Shown here: positions 25,773 through 55,845 of the stretch, piece after piece | Layout of the letters: every line of letters starts with the position of its first letter | Numbering within the stretch: position 1 is the first letter of the stretch | Source: Apostichopus japonicus | Taxonomy: Eukaryota; Echinodermata; Holothuroidea; Aspidochirotida; Stichopodidae | Direction of reading: 5' to 3' | Assembly: GCF_037975245.1 (NCBI RefSeq) | Contig: NC_092561.1 | Coordinates: 7,670,001-7,734,000 of the forward strand | Length of the DNA stretch: 64,000 bases | Position numbers and translations under genes: made by a program | The notes under the pieces: generated by a model | Database searches by the model: none | The model's input: only the letters and a program-made list of their open reading frames with translations | Told to the model about the DNA's origin: nothing

Positions 25773-25820
25773 AAATACACAAATACACACAAATTGTTTC
25801 TTTACTTATTTCCTCCTCAG

Positions 25821-27331
25821 ATGGCTAAGTTGGGTTTGGCCCCATCTGGAGGTAAACCATGGTTTTCGACAGGATCAACTGTACTTTTCCTTGTAGCGGG
25901 CTTGTCATTCTTTTACGTAGCAGCAGAAGGGTCTTGGTATTGCGGCAGTGCACCGGAGACAGTTCGAGCTATATGCGATGGATGTTACGCCGGTGGAATT
26001 CACACTAGGGCGTTTAAGAGATCATCATCAGATATAATATCATTGTACAAAGGTATATAATTTAATTCCCTTAGCAAATGTCATTTCAGCCCGCATAAAA
26101 ATATATCAAATACATCCCACTGTGATCATCGACTCCTTGCAGTAACAAATATCTGTAACCAAAATATACAAACAAAAATTGATTAATTTATTTGTTCTAT
26201 CGCCAATTGTTGTACAATGGGAAAGGAAGTCTCCATAAAGTCTTAAATAGACTTAACAAAGTAGGAGACTCCCTAGAAGATATGGAAAAAAATGTACAAA
26301 TATAAATAATACAGTGTATGCATAAGGATTGAATATACAGTAATAATATCCTAATGATGCTGAGATGGATACATTTATCAAAATTAAGTGACATTGAAAA
26401 AACACATCTAGAATTTGAGAACACACATATAGCCTATACTGAGCTTGGGTGATCAACAAGTCTATGACGTCACGCTATCGGTTCACGAATGACGTCGAAG
26501 ATAGAGTACAACGCCTAGCTACTAGAAAGAATGATATCATTAACTTGATTGGATTTAACAAAAAGAAGTAGTTATGAAATTCGATTATATGTTAGCAATT
26601 ATAGTCAGTTGATGAAATGGCTGATTGAAATTTATCAGGGTAGAAATGACGTGATAAGTATAGTAGAGCATACCATAGAAACAACATAATAAACGGTTAA
26701 AGGGTGTTGCGTTTACTAAGCTGTCTTATCAGACGGAAGTTACGTAAATCTGGACACATTTTGAGACTATTTTACGCAACATCTTGCAGTCGACCTGTGT
26801 TCTTTTGTTTTGTTTCCTTTTGTTTTGTTTTGTTTTGTTTCCTTTTGTTTCCTTTCCTTTTATTTTCTTTCCTTTTGTTTTGTTTCCTTTTGTTTTGTTT
26901 TGTTTCCTTTCCTTTTATTTTCTTTCCTTTTGTTTTCTTTCCTTTTGTTTTCTTTCCTTTTGTTTTCCTTTTGTTTTCCTTTTCTTTTGTTTTCCTTTTG
27001 TTTTCCTTTCCTTTTGTTTTGTTTAGTTTTCTTTTCTTTTTCTTCCCTTTTCTTTTCTTTTCTTTTAATCAATTGTAACTTCTATATTTCTTATGTTTAA
27101 ACCACAGATCCATTCCTTAAAAAATCGAATGCCTTGAACTTCTTACTACCACGAAGTCATACCCCTTCCAGTTTGATAAAACGAGGGATCAGAAGATCCG
27201 GCTTTATCGGGGAGTGTTGTGAGAAGAATTGCGAAATACGAGAAATGGTATTTTACTGCTGTGCCGAGAAACAACGGGAATATGCCTCATTTTTTCCCGA
27301 GATTTTCAGAAACAGAATACGACACACGTAG
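25821..27331 (+). CDS. Insulin-superfamily peptide precursor with eight cysteines
   Basis: Secreted peptide hormone precursor in two coding exons, 25821-26052 and 27108-27331. The donor is AAAG|GTATAT, the acceptor ACCACAG, both phase 1, and together they restore one Asp codon. The predicted protein has 151 residues. Residues 20-35 are a hydrophobic signal segment. The B chain has Cys41, Cys52 and Cys55 (CGSAPETVRAICDGC), a Lys-Arg site follows at 66-67, and a C peptide of about 35 residues ends at Lys-Arg 102-103. The A chain carries the exact insulin signature CC-x3-C-x8-C (Cys114, 115, 119, 128) plus one extra cysteine, Cys129. B-chain spacing is C-x10-C-x2-C, not the usual C-x11-C. Eight-cysteine insulins called octinsulins have, from memory, been described in echinoderms; this may be one. 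The ATG directly follows a pyrimidine-rich acceptor (AG at 25819-25820), so a 5' UTR exon lies upstream. Target receptor unknown. Confidence 0.85.
26803..27067. repeat. Pyrimidine-rich TTTTG/CCTTTT simple repeat in intron
   Basis: About 265 bases of TTTTGTTTCC-type repeat, almost free of A and G-poor, inside the single coding intron of the insulin-like gene and ending about 40 bases before its acceptor. It yields long spurious frames on both strands. Confidence 0.95.
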
Positions 27332-27967
<636 letters not shown>

Positions 27968-28194
27968 TAGATAGGTCGGCTAGGGACTCGGAAAAAATTA
28001 AATGAGTACATCCATCATATAATACAATATGCGAGTACTACTATGAAAAAACCACAAATTAAGGGCATAAATTTTGTTTCCATTTATTATTTAATATACA
28101 CTTTTGAGTCGTCCCATGATATGAATGAAAACAATTCAATCACTTTATGTTTACCTATTACTACACAAGGGACTGGATATCATAAACAAGACAG

Positions 28195-36062: not shown

Positions 36063-36574
36063 TGTGTAGTGTTCGGTTTCGAAATATCTGATATCGGAAA
36101 TATCTGGTATTTTTCATTTCCTTCAACGAAGTTTTATAATTGCCGTTATAAGAGGTTGTAATATTTGTACACCAATAAATTAACTGTGTCTGAATTTTCG
36201 AAAACTTCCTGACCAACATTCTTCATCCTACTTCCCTCTACTCGTAGCAATTTTGACCTGTCTGTTAGGGGTTGAAGAATTTTGTGCAACATTATGTATA
36301 TGTTTTGAAGTGATTTTCTTCACGAGAAATGTGAATTTTCAAATTCTGAACAAATAATGGGCTCTAAACTTTGAAAAGTGGGGCTTTCGGATATTGTGGG
36401 CCGTGACGTAGAATCACCTACAAAAGCAATGATCCACAGGATATGCAATGAGGTCGAACATGATGTGTGACTGGTTACAATCTTCAAAAAAGTTATGGAT
36501 GAAAAAAAAAATATTGGGAAATACTTGGTTCTCAAGCAAAAGTGTCCATCTGGTTGGTCATTTTCAAGCCCGAG
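36063..36574. other. No gene seen
   Basis: AT-rich sequence. A long minus-strand frame crosses this region into the MITE fragment at 36575-36712 and is judged spurious. Confidence 0.4.
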
Positions 36575-36712
36575 AAGTGCCATTTCCGGTGATCTAGTTG
36601 GTATCAAAACCTGAAATTTTCCTGTACGCTCCGCACCAACTGATGGTGGCGCTCCGCTTAGATAGTAATTCGCGCCCCCCCCCGGGTTAGAAAATCCTGG
36701 ATACGCCCCTGC
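36575..36712. mobile_element. MITE fragment related to the 12823 family
   Basis: It shares GTGCCATTTCCGGTGATCT and GGTGGCGCTCCGCTTAGATA with 12823-13125 and ends CCTGGATACGCCCCTG, a hAT-like terminus. The left end was not found. Confidence 0.55.
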
Positions 36713-37441
36713 TATATGCGCTAGACACATTTCCTTCGATGCCACACTGCCATCCATAGATAAAAGTTATACACTCCGACCTGAATGCTTATTGTTACCC
36801 TAAACCTAGTAACGTAACTCGTAAAATGAATCTAAAAATAATTCCGCATGCGATTGGAGAATTGAGCACATCTCCTGTGAATATCATGTATAGTGAATCC
36901 AAGGGCGTATCATGGGCGAGGGCGGGGGTGGGCCCACGCAACCATCACTTCTAGTGATTATTCCATCTGCATGAAATAGCGGGCCCCACAACCCTACGCC
37001 CACCCCTCTAATCGCTTGCCGATGAGTTATATACGAAACTTAATTATTGACCTTCGCCCGTAGTACCAAGACCTTGACATAATCTGGCAACACGCCACTT
37101 CATCGATAACAAGTGATTGGGTTGTGTATAAGTGACGTCTATGGGTCGTTCACTCACCTACCTGGAGTGCGACCACTCCCGATTTTACTTTTTCCAAGAT
37201 CAGGCTCCGAAAAATCCAAGGACACTGTACTATATGGATATCTAGCAATATCTAGCGATATCTAGGAATGAAAATCCCAAGATCTTCCCTAAACTGAAGG
37301 CATATATAGAATCGAAGCCTTCAGTGTGTAATGAACTTGAAACTGTGCGCTTCGAAATGAAAAGAATGTGGGGCATTGCACAATAAAATTTAAAAAAAAA
37401 TGCAAAATAAAATTTATTTATTTCAGACTCATTTCAATTAT
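36713..37441. other. No gene seen
   Basis: No repeat copy or coding exon recognised. A short repeated ATATCTAGCAATATCTAGCG lies near 37238-37265. Confidence 0.4.
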
Positions 37442-43110: not shown

Positions 43111-46039
43111 ATCGATTAAATAGTCCTGTAGAGACTCGGCGTTTGCGTTATCTCATATATTTATTATTTATAGTATACGCAATGTATACTTTTGATGTAA
43201 AATACCAATCATATCAGTTCAGCGTGGCTGTTCTCGCGATATCAAAGTCCAATCTCAATTATATATAAGTTCCGTGCGTTGTTTCCATTGTAGGCTACAT
43301 AAACGTACAATGTACAGTGTGTATGATCATGTATTTCCTTTATGGTCCGACTCGAAATAACGCAAGAAAGAAAAATCTGGCTAGGTTGATAACTTGATGC
43401 AAGAGTAGGTAAACATTAAAGTAAGGTAAGTCTTAGAAATGCATAACGGTTATAATTTCAAAAATGTTTCCTTAGTTCATCAGTATTTTGATATACCATT
43501 AAGAGGGATATAATAGAGCAAAAATTGCAATAGTGATTAGTATTATCGTTAATTCGGTATCTATTGCCGTTGTTATATTATTAAGCTTAACAATCAGAAC
43601 AGAACAGATATCGAGGTCATAGCCATGATACCGAATTCACTAAAGTTATAAACTGACTGATTGAGTAAACTTCGAATCATCATGTATTGTCATTACAAGT
43701 CAACTGTTTAAACATAAAAAGGTAAACATTCTTAAAATTTGCATGCAAGAATAAAATCACCTTGTTATACAGATGTCTACAACATGCAAACATATGGTAT
43801 CATAAGTACATTTAAGAAGCATTGTTGGTTACATCACCGGAAATGGCACTTCCCAGGCCTTGTAAGTTGCATCTGAAAATTCTTTATTTTGAGATCTCTT
43901 GATTGAGAATTTTACACTTACAAAAAAAAAGGTCAATTAGAAAAATTGTATTAGATGAATTGAATAAAGGACTTAAGGTAATAAGCTCTGCCTTATTCAC
44001 TGTTTACACAGGTAAATGAAGATATGAAAGCACACCAGGGCTTTATTATGATAGCTGTAGCCTGTATGAAGTGGGGAAGCCATATGGGGAATTTAGGTGT
44101 AAATAAGTTGTTATCATTATTTCTTCTACATCCCAAGAAGGGGCTTACTAGGGGAAGGGGGGGGGATGAACTGAGTGTGTGGGCCATGTATGGGGACTGT
44201 GCCTCAATAATCTTAGTTAAAACATTTGGGCACTGATATAGGAGCTAACATTTAAACTGATAGGCCATCATAAAACATATAGACGTAATAAATATATCCA
44301 TGAGCCATAGTTTAGTAATAAAGTTCTACACTTTTCACGATAAAATCTTAGGAGTTCTCTACTTGTATTGTCATTCTAAAAAAATGATCAGTTATAATTA
44401 ACCCTGTGTTTTATTGTTTGGAACGCCATTCCTACAATACGTGCCTAGGAACTTGAGGTTGCACACTAATCTAATAAAATTAGAAGAAATGATTTTGAAC
44501 ATTTTGCTTAAACTAAGCGAAATAGTGCTTACTGCCTAAGCATCCACATTATCTTAACCAAAATATAATTTGCATATAGTGTAATATTGCTAATATTGTA
44601 CGTGACAAACCACATAATATAAAATAAAAAAAATAATATTCTTGAAAGGAGATTAGTGAATGCTGCAGGCTTTCACTATCTCCTTGCTCAGCATACAGCG
44701 GTGTATGGGCCCGGTTGCTCAGTTAATTTACGCTATAAATGCAATCTGTCAGTCTTATATCTTCAACCCAGTGGAAGTTGTAATTTCATTGGGGGTTGAG
44801 CAAATGAGAATGAAACATTAATAACCAATTATCTCATAGCACAATGTTTTCAGAGCTCCTTTTATGAGATACACGAGTCATTATGAGCCTGATAATGGGC
44901 TAGTGCTTACAGGAGCCAGCCACTAAACCTGGGTGGGGAAATTTGATATTATTTCTTCCACCTTTCAGAAAGAGGAATGTGTCCCCATGCACCCCCCCCC
45001 CTCCCTGCCGTGATTGATGCCCCTACTTGTACAGACAAACGTTTATACCTAAGATTGCACCAGTTGACGCTTAAAAAACTTCAACTTCTCGGTGTGGACT
45101 CCTACATCCCGACAAAGTGTCTACTACAATGACCCAAGTGCAGCCCCCCCCCTTCTCCCCTACTTAAAATCTATCATTCTCCTCTGGCCCATCAACACAT
45201 TTTTTAACGCCATACCTTAATCAATTGGGGGGAGTTGAATTTGTCCCCTCCGTTCCTCCACTTTGCTATGCTGCTCATGCCACTGAGTGACTCTTTGTGG
45301 TTATATTATGCTGAAGGCTTGGTAACTTTGCAATAGTGATGGCGTGTGCTTGTGTTTGTGATGGCTAGAAGCACTAGTTGAGTCAATGTCGTGCTTGGTA
45401 CAGTAGGTAGATGCCCCTTGTTGGTTAAATGTTCTCTATTGTTTGTGCTCCCCGTTTCATGCATATTGATGAGTGGGCGGGGTAAACGTACAATCCATAT
45501 AATGGCAATATCTTTTCAAACCTATGTCTGATTTAGTTCATACTTGGTATGGTGATGTAACTATATAGTAAGTATATGCTCTTTGCAACAACTTTGACCT
45601 TGTTCATATTCATGATTTTGTGGGGCTTAATGTGGGAAATAATCAAAAACAGCTTGTAAAAACATATATCTCATCAACCACAAGTTGAATAAATGTCATA
45701 CTGGGTAAATGCCTCATGATTGAAATTGGTAAAGGTCAAAAGAGGTCAACAGGTAACAAAGTTCCAGTACTATTAAAGTCAGTGTGGTTGTGTTTGCCAT
45801 CAGCAATATCCGAACAGTTCCATTATGCCAGTGATCGAGTTGCACCAATATCTCGACTTCTGTGTTTATAGGGAAAGACATACCCGTCATACCGTAGGTT
45901 ACAAAGAACAGCTTTTATATTCAGTTCATTGAAGGTCTTTCTTCTTAATTTTCTTACTCTCAATTTGTTTCTCCAAATAATGATTTTAATAAACACTGAT
46001 CATGATCATTTTCTTTACAGATTAAATTTCGCGACAAAA

Positions 46040-48253
46040 ATGGCCTGCCCATCGCCTTGGAAAGACATCGAAGATAAATTCTTTGAATGTTCAATTTGTT
46101 TGGATCTGTTTAAAGAACCGAAACTATTACCGTGTCTACATAGATTTTGTAAACAATGTCTGGAATCTATACTAGAAGGACAGGTTGGGACATTTAAATG
46201 TCCTCTTTGCAAAGATGTCTGTAACATACCAAACAATGGGATAGATGGATTCAAGACTGACTTCCATATGAAAAGTATGCTGCAGTTTATTCAGCTACAG
46301 AAAACATTTGAAAATGAAGAAGTTAGGGTCTGTGTTGGCTGTTCAAAGAAGTTAAAGGTTACAGCATACTGTTTTAAGTGCAAAGATTTTCTTTGTGTCC
46401 AGTGTTATCAATTCCACTCGACCAACAAGATGGTTGCTGATCATCGGGAAAATGTATTAGCTCTGAAAGATGTTGAAGGAAAGAGTCTCACATTAGAAAA
46501 ACTTGCATCATTGAAGGAAGCCCTTAGGTGCCATGTTCATACAGAATTTAAAGCTCAGTTATGTTGTTGTACTTGTGGAAATCTCCCTGTTTGTGTGACA
46601 TGTACGTATGGAAAACACAAAGGTCATGACCTACAAGACGTTGCGAATGTGTCGAAAGAAGAAAGAGAGAGATTGCAGAAGAGATTGGAAGAACTTGTAA
46701 AACGGAAAGAAAATGTAACCAGCTTAACTAATAAGATAAACAAAGTAAATGAAGAACTTACATCAATCGTTGCTGATACAAAAAGGAAATGGGAAACGCA
46801 GTACGAAGATCAGACCAGGAAGTTAAAGAATAAGAAAGAGAAAGAAAAGAAAGAATTCAACAGATTCAAAGCAGTTCTTGAAAAAAGGAGTCGAAAAGAA
46901 TTGAAAGAATTAGAAACAGAAATGGAAGAGAAGATTAGAAAAATAAGAGACGAGTACGACAGGATGATTAAAATCAAAATTAGGGAATCAAAAGAGAAAG
47001 AGGAAACCAAACAAAATGAAATAGAAAACAGTGAATTAAAGATTGACGAAACAATGAACAAACTTGATGCATTAATGAATGAGAGAAATAAAACAATAGA
47101 AGAACAACAGCAACGCAAGCTTAGAGAAACACAAAACTTATCAGATCTTTGTAACCAATGGGTCAATAAGTTTGAAAATATGTCTACTATAGCTTCGAGT
47201 GTCCTTGAATCGCACAACCACTGGACAGACGCACAGTGTATTCCTGATATAAGAGCTGCGAGCGAACCTCTAGTTGAGGATCTTATGAAAGATTTTCCAG
47301 AAATGGAATCTTTATCTGATATAACAATGGATGATCTACCAATGTTGTGTATTGATAGAGTAAATATATCGGATAATGTAGAATCTGTTGTTGATTTTGA
47401 TATGATCAAAGGTAGTTTGTTTTGTTTAACTGGTATAACAAGTACCGGATCTGGTAACATCATCGTCTCTGGGAGGTTATCACAAGACCATTCATTTATT
47501 ACAGTGATAAACAGACAAGGACGTCAGATTCGTCATAACAAGATAGATAAAGGCAAAGGGAGCTCTCTTCAACCCTTTCGATACTGTGCTGCTTTATCAC
47601 GTGATAAGATAGCTTCGGTTTGTAGATCCAATCAGCTTGTTGTTTATAATATTCATGGTGGGTCCTTGACTCAAAATAAGATCACGTCCTTCTTTGATGA
47701 CATCAAAACGGTGGGTGAAAAATATGCGAGTTGTATAACTACCGATACTATTCGTGGCCACATCATTGTAGGTACATCTATTGGATCGCTATTCATATTT
47801 GATGAAGAGTTGAAGTTCATTCGAGCTCTGAAGCTGCCAGAGGTTATAAAATGCTCAAGAGATATCCTTTATCATCAAGGCGTTCTGCTGATATGCGATG
47901 GAGAGAGTAGATGTGCATACGCTGTTACCATGGATACAACTAACACAGAGGCAGAGTTACTATACAAGCTTCCGATACCAGCTATTGACGGAGACACTTG
48001 GTATCCTTGGAGTATATGTGCAGACAGGGCAGGTTTTGTATACATATTGTGGAATGGTGATGGAACACGTATCATCACACAGTACAGTCAAGATGGTCAG
48101 CAGATGTTGACAACCAAACGGACAAAAGATACAGCATGGTGTATGACAACATTGATGACAGAGGAGGGACATAAGCTACTTGTAGCTACATCATATTCAG
48201 GAAAGATACTTTGTTATTGTCTGGTGAGTATATCTCAGTGTTCAATACTTTAA
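46040..48253 (+). CDS. TRIM protein: RING, two B-boxes, coiled coil, propeller-like C-terminus (copy 1)
   Basis: Probable cytosolic E3 ubiquitin ligase of the TRIM class, 737 residues from the ATG at 46040. RING C3HC4: Cys17/20, Cys32, His34, Cys37/40, Cys54/57. B-box 1: Cys98/101, 111/114, 119/122, with His126 and His135. B-box 2: Cys164-x2-His167, Cys176/179, Cys185/188, His193/196. A long charged coiled coil spans about 204-370, and a repeat-containing C-terminal region about 430-728 looks like an NHL/beta-propeller. I chose this start because it follows an acceptor (TTTCTTTACAG, ending 46020) and a good AAAATGG context; upstream in-frame sequence lacks an ATG at its start. A GTGAGT donor after codon 728 (48224) could splice to an acceptor at 48820, replacing the last nine residues with Thr-Pro-Glu and a stop (48830-48832). 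The read-through form has an AATAAA at 48478. Confidence 0.9.
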   Translation: MACPSPWKDIEDKFFECSICLDLFKEPKLLPCLHRFCKQCLESILEGQVGTFKCPLCKDVCNIPNNGIDGFKTDFHMKSMLQFIQLQKTFENEEVRVCVGCSKKLKVTAYCFKCKDFLCVQCYQFHSTNKMVADHRENVLALKDVEGKSLTLEKLASLKEALRCHVHTEFKAQLCCCTCGNLPVCVTCTYGKHKGHDLQDVANVSKEERERLQKRLEELVKRKENVTSLTNKINKVNEELTSIVADTKRKWETQYEDQTRKLKNKKEKEKKEFNRFKAVLEKRSRKELKELETEMEEKIRKIRDEYDRMIKIKIRESKEKEETKQNEIENSELKIDETMNKLDALMNERNKTIEEQQQRKLRETQNLSDLCNQWVNKFENMSTIASSVLESHNHWTDAQCIPDIRAASEPLVEDLMKDFPEMESLSDITMDDLPMLCIDRVNISDNVESVVDFDMIKGSLFCLTGITSTGSGNIIVSGRLSQDHSFITVINRQGRQIRHNKIDKGKGSSLQPFRYCAALSRDKIASVCRSNQLVVYNIHGGSLTQNKITSFFDDIKTVGEKYASCITTDTIRGHIIVGTSIGSLFIFDEELKFIRALKLPEVIKCSRDILYHQGVLLICDGESRCAYAVTMDTTNTEAELLYKLPIPAIDGDTWYPWSICADRAGFVYILWNGDGTRIITQYSQDGQQMLTTKRTKDTAWCMTTLMTEEGHKLLVATSYSGKILCYCLVSISQCSIL

Positions 48254-50622: not shown

Positions 50623-53600
50623 TGTTCAATTATTACTTGTCACTTATAAGTTCCCCTATGGCCTATGGGGATCGATTAAATAGTCCTGTAGAGACTCATC
50701 GTTTGCGTTATCTCATATATTTATTATTTATAGTATACGCAATGTATACTTTTGATGTAAAATACCAATCATATCAGTTCAGCGTGGGTGTTCTCGTGAA
50801 ATCAAAGTCCAATCTCAATTTTATATAAGTTCCGTGCATTGTATCCATTGTAGGCTACATATACGTACAATGTACAGTGTGTATTATCATGTATTTCCTT
50901 CTGGTCCGACTCGAAATAGCGCAGGAAAGAAAAATCTGGCTAGGTTGATAACTTGATGCAAGAGTACCGGAAAAGGTAAACATTAAAGTAAGGTACGGTA
51001 AGTCTTAGAAATGCATAAAGGTCATAATTTCAAAAATGTCTCCTTAGTTCATCAGTATTTTGATATAACATTAAGAGGGATATAATAGAGAAAAATTGCA
51101 ATAGTGATTAGTATTATCGTTAATTTTGTATATCTATTGCCGTTGTTATATTACTAAGCTAAACAATCAGAACAGAACAGATATCGAGGTCATAGCCATG
51201 ATACCGATTTCACTAAAGTTATAAACTGACTGATTGAGTAAACTTCGAATCATCATGTATTGTCATTACAAGTCAACTGTTTAAACATAAAAAGGTAAAC
51301 ATTCTTAATCTTTGCATGCAAGAATAAAATCACCTTGTTATACAGATGTCTACAACATGCAAACATATGGTATCATAAGTACATTTAAGAAGCATTGTTG
51401 GTTACATCACCGGAAATGGCACATCCCATGCATGCCTTGTAAGTTGCATCTGAAAATTCTTTATTTTGAGATCTGATGATTGAGAATTTTACACTTACAA
51501 AAAAAAAGGTCAATTAGAACAATTGTATTAGATGAATTGAATGAAGGACTTAAGGTTATAAGCTCTGCCTTATTCACTGTTTACACAGGTAAATGAAGAT
51601 ATAAAAGTACACCAGGGCTTTATTATGATAGCTGTAGCCTGTATGAAGTGGGGAAGCCATATGGGGAATTTAGGTGTAAATAAGTTGTTATCATTATTTC
51701 TTCTACATCCTAAGAAGGGACTTACTAGGGGAAGGGGGGGGGGGTGAACTGAGTGTGTGGGCCATGTATGGGGACCGTGCCTCAATAATCTTAGTTAAAA
51801 CATTTGGGTACTGATATGCCCGAGCTAACATTGAAACTGATAGGCCAACATAAAAAATATAGACGTAATAAATATATCCATGAGCCATAGTTTCGTAATA
51901 AACTGCTACACTGTTTACGATAAAATCTTAGGAGTTCTCTACTTTTATTGTAATTCTAAAAAAATGATCAGTTATAATTAACCCTGTGTTTTATTGTTTG
52001 GAACGCCATTCCTACAATACGTGCCTAGGAACTTGAGGTCGCACACTAATCTGACTAAATAAATCAGCAGAAATTATATGAATATTTTGCTTAAACTAAG
52101 CGAAATAGTGCTTACTGCCTAAGCATTCACATTATCTTAATCAAAATATAATTTGCATATAGTGTTATATTGCTAATATTGTACGTGACAAACAACATAA
52201 TATAAAATTTAAAAAAAAAAATTCTGGAAAGGAGATTAGTGAATGCTGCAGGCTTTCATTATCTCCTTGCTCAGCATATAGCCTTAACTGTGTATGGGCC
52301 CGGTTGCTCAGTTAATTTACGCTATAAATGAAATCTGTCAGTCTTATATCTTCAACCTAGTTGAAGTTGTAATTTCATTGGGGGTTGAGAAAAATGAGAA
52401 TGAAACATTAATAACCAATTATCTCATAGCACAATGTTTTCAAAGCCCCCTTTATGAGAGACACGAGTCATTATGAGCCTGATAATGGGCTAGTGCTTAC
52501 AGGAGCCAGCCACTAAACCTTGGGTGGGGAAATTTGATATTATTTCTTCCACCTTTCAGAAAGAGGAATTTGTCCCCCTGCCCCCCCCCCCCTCCCTGCC
52601 GTGATTGATGCCCATGCTTGTACAGACAAACGTTTATACCTAAGATTGCACCAGTTGACGCTTAAAAAACATAAACTTCTCGGTGTGGACTCCTACATCC
52701 CGACAAAGTGTCTACTACAATGACCCAAGTGCAGCCCCCCCCCTTCTCCCCTACTTGAAATCTATCATTCTCCTCTGGCCCATCAACACAATTTTTAACG
52801 CCATGCCTTAATCAATTGGGGGAGTTGAATTTGCCCCTCCATTCCTCCACTTTGTTATGCTGCTCATGCCACTGAGTGACTCTTTGTGGTTATATGATGT
52901 TGAAGGCTTGGTAACTTTGCAATAGTGATTGCGTGTGTGTGTTCGGGGGAGGGGGCGTCTGTGTTTGTGATGGCTAGAAGCACTAGTTGAGTCAATGTCG
53001 TGCTCGGTACAGTAGGTAGATGCCCCGTGTTGGCTAAATGTGCTCTATTGTTTGTGCTTCCCATTCATGCATATTGATGAGTGGGCGGGGTAAACGTACA
53101 ATTCATATAATGGCAATATCTTTTTCAAACCTATGTCTGATTTAGTTCATACTTGGTATGGTGATGTAACTACATAGTAAATATGTGCTCTTTGCAACAA
53201 CTTTGACCTTGTTAATATTCATGATTTTGTGTGGCTTAATGGGAAATAGTCAAAAACAGCTTGAAAACACATATATCTCATCAACCACAAGTTGAATAAA
53301 TGTCATACTTGGTAAATGCCTCATGATTGAAATTGGTAAAGGTCAAAAGAGGTCAACAGGTAACAAAGTTCCAGCACTATCAAAGTCAGTGTGGTTGTGT
53401 TTGCCATCAGCAATATCCGAACAGTTCCATTATGCCAGTGATCGAGTTGCACCAATATCTCAACTTCTGTGTTTATAGGGCAAGAAATGCCCGTCATACC
53501 GTAGGTTACAAAGAACAGCTTTTAAATTCAGTTCATTGAAGGTCTTGCTACTTAATTTTCTTGCTCTCAATTTGTTACTCCAAATAATGATAGTAATAAA

Positions 53601-53646
53601 CACTAATCATCATACTTTTCTTTACAGATTAAATTTCGCGACAAAA

Positions 53647-55845
53647 ATGGCCTGCCCATCGCCTTGGAAAGACATCGAAGATAAATTCTTTGAATGTTCA
53701 ATTTGTTTGGATCTGTTTAAAGAACCGAAACTATTACCGTGTCTACATAGATTTTGTAAACCATGTCTGGAACCTATACTAGAAGGACAGGTTGGGACAT
53801 TTGAATGTCCTCTTTGTAAAGATGTCTGTAACATACCAAACAATAGAATAGATGGATTTAAGACTGACTTCCATATGAAAAGTATGCTGCAGTTTATTCA
53901 GCTACAGAAAACATTTGAAAATGAAGAAGTTAGGGTCTGTGCTGGCTGTTCAAAGAAGTTAAAGGTTACAGCATACTGTTTTAAGTGCAAAGATTTTCTT
54001 TGTGTCCAGTGTTATCAATTCCACTCTACCAACAAGATGGTTGCTGATCATCGGGGAAATGTATTAGCTCTGAAAGATGTTGAAGGAAAGAGTCTCACGT
54101 TAGAAAAACTTGCATCATTGAAGGAAGCCCTTAGGTGCCATGTTCATACAGAATTTAAAGCTCAGTTATGTTGTTGTACTTGTGGAAATCTCCCTGTTTG
54201 TGTGACATGTACGTATGGAAAACACAAAGGTCACGACCTACAAGACGTTGCGAATGTGTCGAAAGAAGAAAGAGAGAGATTGCAGAAGAGATTGGAAGAA
54301 CTTGTAAAACGGAAAGAAAATGTTACCAGCTTAACTGATAAGATAAACAAAGTAAATGCAGAACTTACATCAATCGTTGCTGATACAAAAAGGAAATGGA
54401 AATCGCAGTACGAAAGTCAGACCAGGGAGTTACAGAATGAGAAAGAGAAAGGAAAGAGAAAATTCCACAGATTCAAAACAGTTCTTGAAGAAAGGAGTCG
54501 AAAAGAATTGAAAGAATTAGAAACAGAAATGGAAGAGAAAATTAGAGAAATAAAAGAAAATTACGACAGGATGATTAAAATTAAAATTAGGGAATCAAAA
54601 GAGAAAGAGGAAACCAAACGAAATGAACTAGAAAAGAGAGAATTAAAGATTGACGAAACAATGAACAAACTTGATGCAGTAATGAATGAGAGAAATAAAA
54701 CAATAGAAGAACAACAGCAACGCAAGCTTAGAGAAACACAAAACTTATCAGATCTTTGTAATCAATGGGTCAATAAGTTTGAAAATATGTCTACTATAGC
54801 TTCGAGTGTCCTTGAATCACGCAACCACTGGACTGATGCACAGTGTATTCCTGATATAAGAGCTGCGAGCGAACCTCTAGTTGAGGATATAATGAAAGAT
54901 TTTCCAGAAATGGAATCAATATCTGATATAACAATGGATGATCTACCAATGTTGTGTATTGATAAAGTAAATATATCGGATAATGTAGAATCTGTTGTTG
55001 ATTTTGATGTGATCAAAGGTATTTTGTTTTGTTTAAGAGGTATAACAAGTACTTGCTCTGGTAACATCGTCATCTCTGGGAGGTTATCATCTGACCATTC
55101 ATTTATTACAGTCATAAACAGACAAGGACGTCAGATTCGTCAAAACAAGATAGATAAAGGCAAAGGGAGCTCTCTTCAACCGTTTCGATACTGTGCTGCT
55201 TTATCACGTGATAAGATAGCTTCGATTTGTAGATCCAATCAGCTTGTTGTTTATAATATTCATGGTGGGTCCTTGACTCAAAAAAACATCACGTCCTTCT
55301 TTGGTGACATCAAAACGGTGGGTGAGAAATATGCGAGTTGTATAACTACTGATACTATACGTGGCCACATCATTGTAGGTACATCTATTGGATCGCTATT
55401 CATATTTGATGAAGAATTGAAGTTCATTCGAGCTCTGAAGCTGCCAGAGGTTATAAAACGCTCAAGAGATATCCTTTATCATCAAGGCGTTCTGCTGATA
55501 TGCGATGAAAAGAATAGATGTGCATACGCTGTTACCATGGATACAGCTAAAACAGGGGCAGAGTTACTATACAAGCTTCCGATACCAGCTATTGACGGAG
55601 GGACTTGGTGTCCTTGGAGTATATGTGTAGACAGGGCAGGTTTTGTATACATCTTGTGGTATAGTGCTGGAAAATATATCATCACACAGTACAGTCAAGA
55701 TGGTCAGCAGTTGTTGACAACCAAACGGACAGAAGATACAGTATGGTGTATGACAACATTGATGACAGAGGAGGGAGAGAAGCTACTTGTAGCTACATCA
55801 TATGCAGGAACGATATTTAGTTATGGTCTGGTGAGTATATATTAG
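53647..55845 (+). CDS. TRIM protein: RING, two B-boxes, coiled coil, propeller-like C-terminus (copy 2)
   Basis: Paralogue of the gene at 46040, 732 residues from the ATG at 53647, with no indel relative to copy 1 up to codon 728. All RING and B-box ligands are kept. By my count eight residues differ from copy 1 in the first 240, but 21 differ in residues 251-350 of the coiled coil (several charge reversals: E252K, K261E, K282E, K301E). About 39 differ in the last 330 residues, clustered in short loops (for example GES/EKN and NGDGTR/YSAGKY). The same GTGAGT donor (55831) and an acceptor at 56422 would give a Thr-Pro-Glu ending (stop 56432-56434); AATAAA lies at 56085 for the unspliced form. 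Function is as for copy 1; partner choice may differ. Confidence 0.9.
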   Translation: MACPSPWKDIEDKFFECSICLDLFKEPKLLPCLHRFCKPCLEPILEGQVGTFECPLCKDVCNIPNNRIDGFKTDFHMKSMLQFIQLQKTFENEEVRVCAGCSKKLKVTAYCFKCKDFLCVQCYQFHSTNKMVADHRGNVLALKDVEGKSLTLEKLASLKEALRCHVHTEFKAQLCCCTCGNLPVCVTCTYGKHKGHDLQDVANVSKEERERLQKRLEELVKRKENVTSLTDKINKVNAELTSIVADTKRKWKSQYESQTRELQNEKEKGKRKFHRFKTVLEERSRKELKELETEMEEKIREIKENYDRMIKIKIRESKEKEETKRNELEKRELKIDETMNKLDAVMNERNKTIEEQQQRKLRETQNLSDLCNQWVNKFENMSTIASSVLESRNHWTDAQCIPDIRAASEPLVEDIMKDFPEMESISDITMDDLPMLCIDKVNISDNVESVVDFDVIKGILFCLRGITSTCSGNIVISGRLSSDHSFITVINRQGRQIRQNKIDKGKGSSLQPFRYCAALSRDKIASICRSNQLVVYNIHGGSLTQKNITSFFGDIKTVGEKYASCITTDTIRGHIIVGTSIGSLFIFDEELKFIRALKLPEVIKRSRDILYHQGVLLICDEKNRCAYAVTMDTAKTGAELLYKLPIPAIDGGTWCPWSICVDRAGFVYILWYSAGKYIITQYSQDGQQLLTTKRTEDTVWCMTTLMTEEGEKLLVATSYAGTIFSYGLVSIY

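Follow-up and report, generated by a model that had tools for sequence, protein, structure and literature searches.

The question raised by this locus is which insulin-like hormone it encodes and what its eight cysteines imply for the folding and the receptor of that hormone. Our answer, held with a probability of about 95%, is that it is the Apostichopus japonicus octinsulin gene, matched by its layout to the published precursor AjILPP (MF401996). The octinsulin gene, its family placing and the idea of an extra disulphide are already known, having been published between 2019 and 2021.

Gene structure and precursor layout

Translation of the window (the whole stretch of 64,000 nucleotides that was analysed) gives a precursor of 151 residues from two open frames spliced together on the + strand (Table 1). 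The intron has GT-AG borders and interrupts an Asp codon (G/AT) in phase 1, so the original prediction of exons joining in matching phase holds. It is the sole coding intron and falls in the C domain. Exon 1 (25821-26052) comprises 77 codons plus one base and ends at the junction AAAG/GTATAT, and exon 2 (27108-27331) is preceded by ACCACAG and closed by TAG. The ATG of exon 1 stands immediately 3' of a CAG (25818-25820) that resembles a splice acceptor and lies downstream of a pyrimidine-rich stretch, which is compatible with an upstream non-coding exon. The published AjILPP gene is described as having four exons, two of them coding (PMC6586643, Table 2), and since a transcript with two coding exons was thus published by others, the splicing is supported at the level of layout. 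A T-rich 5-base tandem array occupies 26800-27066, in the intron near the acceptor. Downstream of the gene, at 27856-27973, there is a long TA array.

Table 1. Positions of the octinsulin gene parts, of nearby open frames and of insulin family matches in the genome (window numbering, or contig and position where a contig is given)
Feature	Position	Strand	Basis
Signal peptide, 35 codons	25821..25925	+	hydrophobic core STVLFLVAGLSFFYV; published length 35
B chain, 30 codons, Cys 41, 52, 55 (C-x10-C-x2-C)	25926..26015	+	sequence; published 30 residues, three Cys
Lys-Arg convertase site, B chain/C peptide	26016..26021	+	sequence
C peptide, first part, up to first base of split codon (phase 1)	26022..26052	+	joined translation
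Phase-1 intron, GT...AG, 1055 bases	26053..27107	+	sequence; two coding exons published
C peptide, remainder (residues 78-101)	27108..27178	+	translation; published C peptide 68-101
Lys-Arg convertase site ahead of A chain	27179..27184	+	sequence
A chain, 48 codons, Cys 114, 115, 119, 128, 129 (CC-x3-C-x8-CC)	27185..27328	+	translation; Pfam Insulin
Stop codon TAG	27329..27331	+	sequence
TRIM-like stretch 1	45872-48253	+	single open frame, 793 residues; Pfam
TRIM-like stretch 2	53479-55845	+	single open frame, 788 residues; Pfam
TRIM-like stretches 3, 4	64692-67076, 78449-80830		protein similarity to stretch 1
Octinsulin A exon		+	insulin family match, genome family search
Upstream IGF, B + A exons	C1:7635452 and C1:7636673	+	genome family search
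Downstream IGF, B + A exons	C1:7839920 and C1:7840680	+	genome family search
IGF-like A-chain exon	C22:8991989-8992063		genome family search
Relaxin-like A exon	C1:11324584-11324661		genome family search
Insulin-like B exon	C1:19247096-19247164		genome family search
Weak insulin family match	C14		genome family search

The order that had been predicted, namely signal segment, B chain, Lys-Arg, C peptide, Lys-Arg and A chain, is seen in the 151-residue translation, and the core of the signal peptide has a mean Kyte-Doolittle value of 2.01 across 15 residues. AjILPP, the precursor of AjILP, was published in 2019 from a circumoral nerve ring transcriptome and is described as a protein of 156 residues with a signal peptide of 35, a B chain of 30 residues with three Cys and the motif CxxxxxxxxxxC, a C peptide at 68-101 and an A chain of 53 residues with five Cys and the motif CCxxxCxxxxxxxxC (PMC6586643). 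The signal length, the B-chain length, the C-peptide span, the 3+5 cysteines, both motifs and the number of coding exons are the same at this locus, and the identity with AjILPP is drawn from them. The two differ in total length (156 in AjILPP, 151 here) and in the A chain (53 and 48 residues).

Beyond its last Cys the A chain at this locus continues for 22 residues (27263-27331 including the stop). We give even odds to the explanation that the 151-residue reading contains an assembly error or is one tail allele and that the A chain in its common form has the published 53 residues. Deleting a single base downstream of the last Cys codon and ahead of the stop leads into a frame that stops at the next TAA, ends in ...TRRTIQN and has exactly 53 A-chain residues, and a one-base indel in the tail would account for 151 versus 156 residues. 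Nevertheless the assembly was built from PacBio HiFi reads, according to its description (PMC10344927), whereas the published length came from a transcript assembly; the error may be in either of them, and both tails may be genuine alleles. Were there a short intron close to the stop, the gene would need a third coding exon, against the two published (PMC6586643).

Cysteine frame and family placement

The joined precursor has eight cysteines, three in the B chain (41, 52 and 55) and five in the A chain (114, 115, 119, 128 and 129), exactly as had been counted in the original prediction. The A chain contains the superfamily motif CC-x3-C-x8-C, with the fifth Cys adjoining its last Cys. The first B-chain spacing, C-x10-C, is one residue below the usual x11, a point absent from that prediction; it is common to this locus and to the published AjILP, which its authors placed in the superfamily (PMC6586643).

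The possibility that these are chance open frames and no gene at all would draw on the shortness of both frames, on a Pfam score under the cut-off and on the looser B motif, which in its form without Gly occurs at least four times within the window, so that the B motif alone is weak evidence. Its probability is nevertheless negligible. When the window was resampled 150 times with a first-order model and the B motif taken as CG-x9-C-x2-C, the A motif was found in 4 and the B motif in 9 of the resampled windows, the real window having one of each; Lys-Arg followed by the A motif, present once in the real window, was found in none of the 150. The splice phases match, and a transcript with the same layout has been published (PMC6586643). 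The sole Pfam family for the joined protein at E <=10 was Insulin (PF00049), with an E-value of 0.0028 and 19.1 bits against a curated cut-off of 23, the alignment taking in residues 40-128 and profile positions 3-81 of 81. Exon 2 by itself matched this family at E 0.0031, and exon 1 by itself gave no Pfam insulin match, just a sub-threshold bacterial domain (E 0.15). A sequence search of the PDB at E <=10 returned 18 sequences, made up of 14 chains of IGF or fly insulin-like type and 4 unrelated enzymes; the best was an IGF-I chain (E 0.0061), and the insulin-type matches cover the A-chain region from residue 96 onward.

The octinsulin family was named by Veenstra (2021), who put the A. japonicus gene in it and described as its marks eight Cys, Lys-Arg sites, one phase-1 coding intron and, in echinoderms, a single copy (PMC8286064). 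The same source reports that the gene is expressed in Apostichopus while the gut regenerates, and that in A. japonicus it shares a contig with two IGF genes (PMC8286064). All of these structural marks, along with the single copy (within the reach of the search) and the IGF linkage, are common to our locus, where Lys-Arg sites frame the C peptide; none of the tested marks differs, the comparison being with the family description (PMC8286064). Membership of the octinsulins, suggested beforehand as a possible home, is thus borne out by the eight Cys, the Lys-Arg sites, the one phase-1 intron and a layout equal to that of AjILPP. To call the hormone little-studied was also fair, as octinsulin and AjILP are seldom named across the literature searched.

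Precursors of relaxin-type gonad-stimulating peptide (RGP/GSS), a spawning hormone, follow the same plan, with dibasic sites and a phase-1 intron within the C peptide. That the locus encodes such a peptide is nevertheless very improbable. RGP A chains are described as ending in Cys and as having Gly ahead of the third A-chain Cys, and RGPs as having six Cys (PMC6389678), whereas here Asn takes the place of that Gly, a 22-residue tail follows the last Cys and there are eight Cys in all. Moreover the B spacing of the A. rubens RGP is x11 against x10 here, and a better RGP candidate is found at C1:11324584 (...GIARRCCSTGCSSSDIAKLC). RGP/GSS was rejected on the two A-chain marks, the terminal Cys and the Gly ahead of the third Cys. 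Multinsulin was likewise rejected, as it is an Asterozoa family typically with four coding exons and with its extra Cys placed differently, and the present gene has two coding exons.

Genomic neighbours and related chains

A search of the B exon against its own genome gave one candidate and one match, which was the exon itself. With the insulin family model at least nine matches were obtained at E <=10 among the best 18 candidates scored; as just the best candidates were scored, the octinsulin copy number is a lower bound, and the gene is single copy within the reach of the search. On C1 an IGF gene, octinsulin and a second IGF gene form a local group spanning about 205 kb, all on the + strand. 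At chromosome level octinsulin is seen to be flanked by IGF genes on both sides, an arrangement consistent with its having arisen through local duplication. Motif scans covering 264 kb around the gene, 15 kb of which are N, recovered the upstream IGF, and no second IGF was among the matches listed from them; the second one is outside that stretch and was found by the genome family search. There was also no dilp7-like A chain among the matches listed from the 264-kb scans, and a dilp7 ortholog was not identified. The linkage of octinsulin with IGF is reported for sea urchins and sea cucumbers and as largely lost in sea stars (PMC8286064), and because of its loss in the sea stars examined it is not strictly defining for octinsulin.

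The same-strand linkage would also suit an IGF-type gene belonging to the local group, and the nearest A chain compared is indeed that of the downstream IGF. In a test with 2000 Cys-preserving shuffles, in which the A chain was compared with four others of the genome, its closest counterpart among the four was that of the downstream IGF, with 9/21 identical residues, and only 2 of the 2000 shuffles scored as high. The corresponding numbers were 14/2000 for the upstream IGF, 51/2000 for the C22 A chain and 402/2000 for the relaxin-like A chain at 11.32 Mb of C1. B-chain likeness was weak (54/2000 for the upstream IGF, 46/2000 for the downstream IGF and 229/2000 for the B exon at 19.25 Mb of C1). 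In echinoderms the IGF-type precursors share with octinsulin a related A chain, a C peptide interrupted by a phase-1 intron and their place as genomic neighbours, but are described as differing in having six Cys and a C terminus extended by a long charged stretch (PMC4772807, PMC8286064). The upstream IGF follows this pattern, with a phase-1 intron at the equivalent position, a long charged tail and about 450 residues as joined, whereas the present precursor has 22 residues past its last Cys, a C peptide framed by Lys-Arg sites and eight Cys versus six in IGF. The published AjILPP transcript is also described without a long charged tail (PMC6586643). The IGF reading was rejected for want of that C-terminal extension, and we consider it highly unlikely in comparison with octinsulin.

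Three further insulin-like exons were found in the genome. The IGF-like A exon on C22 has a short tail and is the best Pfam Insulin match in the genome; a motif scan of 3 kb found no insulin-like B exon near it. The B-chain exon at C1:19247096-19247164 (RRLCGPDLVHALSLVCGERGYF) is strongly insulin-like, and a similar 3-kb motif scan found no A exon near it. The relaxin-like A exon, located on C1 like octinsulin and 3.6 Mb away from it, ends in Cys and is a candidate gonad-stimulating peptide that, judged from its sequence, fits better than the octinsulin locus.

Between octinsulin and the downstream IGF there are four tandem TRIM-like stretches (RING, B-box), the second to fourth having 88-90% protein identity to the first. 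An open frame of 148 residues at 36323-36766 (-) had no Pfam match at E <=0.01.

Maturation, receptor and comparison with known systems

The spliced transcript would be translated in secretory cells, above all nervous ones, as Veenstra's expression data suggest. Sequence and insulin biology suggest that the 35-residue signal peptide would then be removed and the disulphides formed, and that cleavage at both Lys-Arg sites would release a two-chain hormone. The predicted bridges of the insulin frame are 114-119 within the A chain and 115-41 and 128-52 between the chains, which would leave the extra pair 129-55 for a fourth bridge. We regard this fourth bridge as probable. The extra Cys of the A chain is at the A21 place, directly after the last canonical Cys. 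That of the B chain is aligned with the Arg-Gly turn that follows the second B-chain Cys of IGFs. In insulin the A21 place and the B-chain turn touch, and this turn must loosen when insulin binds to its kinase receptor. A fourth bridge would lock the end of the A chain onto the B-chain turn. The extra disulphide that had been predicted for this locus has in fact been in print since 2019, when an additional atypical disulphide was suggested for AjILP, and the pairing of the cysteines is deduced, here as there (PMC6586643).

As to the receptor, Veenstra's view that it is a leucine-rich-repeat GPCR seems to us somewhat likelier than an insulin receptor kinase. Octinsulin was put forward as the only plausible ligand for the LGR3-type (gonadulin) receptor (PMC8286064). 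In starfish, however, RGP1 and RGP2 are reported to activate RXFP/LGR3 and not LGR4 (PMC11863921), so the premise that LGR3 has no other ligand fails and the link with octinsulin is contested; octinsulin is unmentioned in the available text of that report (PMC11863921). AjILP is described as being without the relaxin receptor-binding motif (PMC6586643), and octinsulin is without the aromatic triplet that follows the B-chain turn. No tested octinsulin receptor was found in the literature searched. More doubtful is the idea that there is a leucine-rich-repeat receptor other than LGR3 to which octinsulin is dedicated, or that LGR3 has octinsulin as its second ligand; if true, the echinoderm ligand-receptor pairing as proposed would need revision.

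Octinsulin is known from echinoderms and hemichordates (PMC8286064). In addition, a potential relative in Xenoturbella bocki has been put forward as a character uniting Xenambulacraria (PMC11521371). With this range and the possible Xenoturbella relative, octinsulin bears both on insulin evolution and on deuterostome relationships. The Xenoturbella peptide belongs to another phylum and is likened to octinsulin by description, being reported with octinsulin sequence similarity and an atypical cysteine pattern (PMC11521371). Molluscs too have insulin-like peptides with eight Cys, SjILP among them, with four disulphides predicted in the insulin frame (PMC9221753). However, the extra A-chain Cys of SjILP is described as preceding the CC (C-x-CC-x3-C-x8-C) and pairing with an early B-chain Cys (PMC9221753), whereas that of octinsulin comes after the last A-chain Cys. 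As the extra pairs are placed differently, those of SjILP and octinsulin are probably separate inventions.
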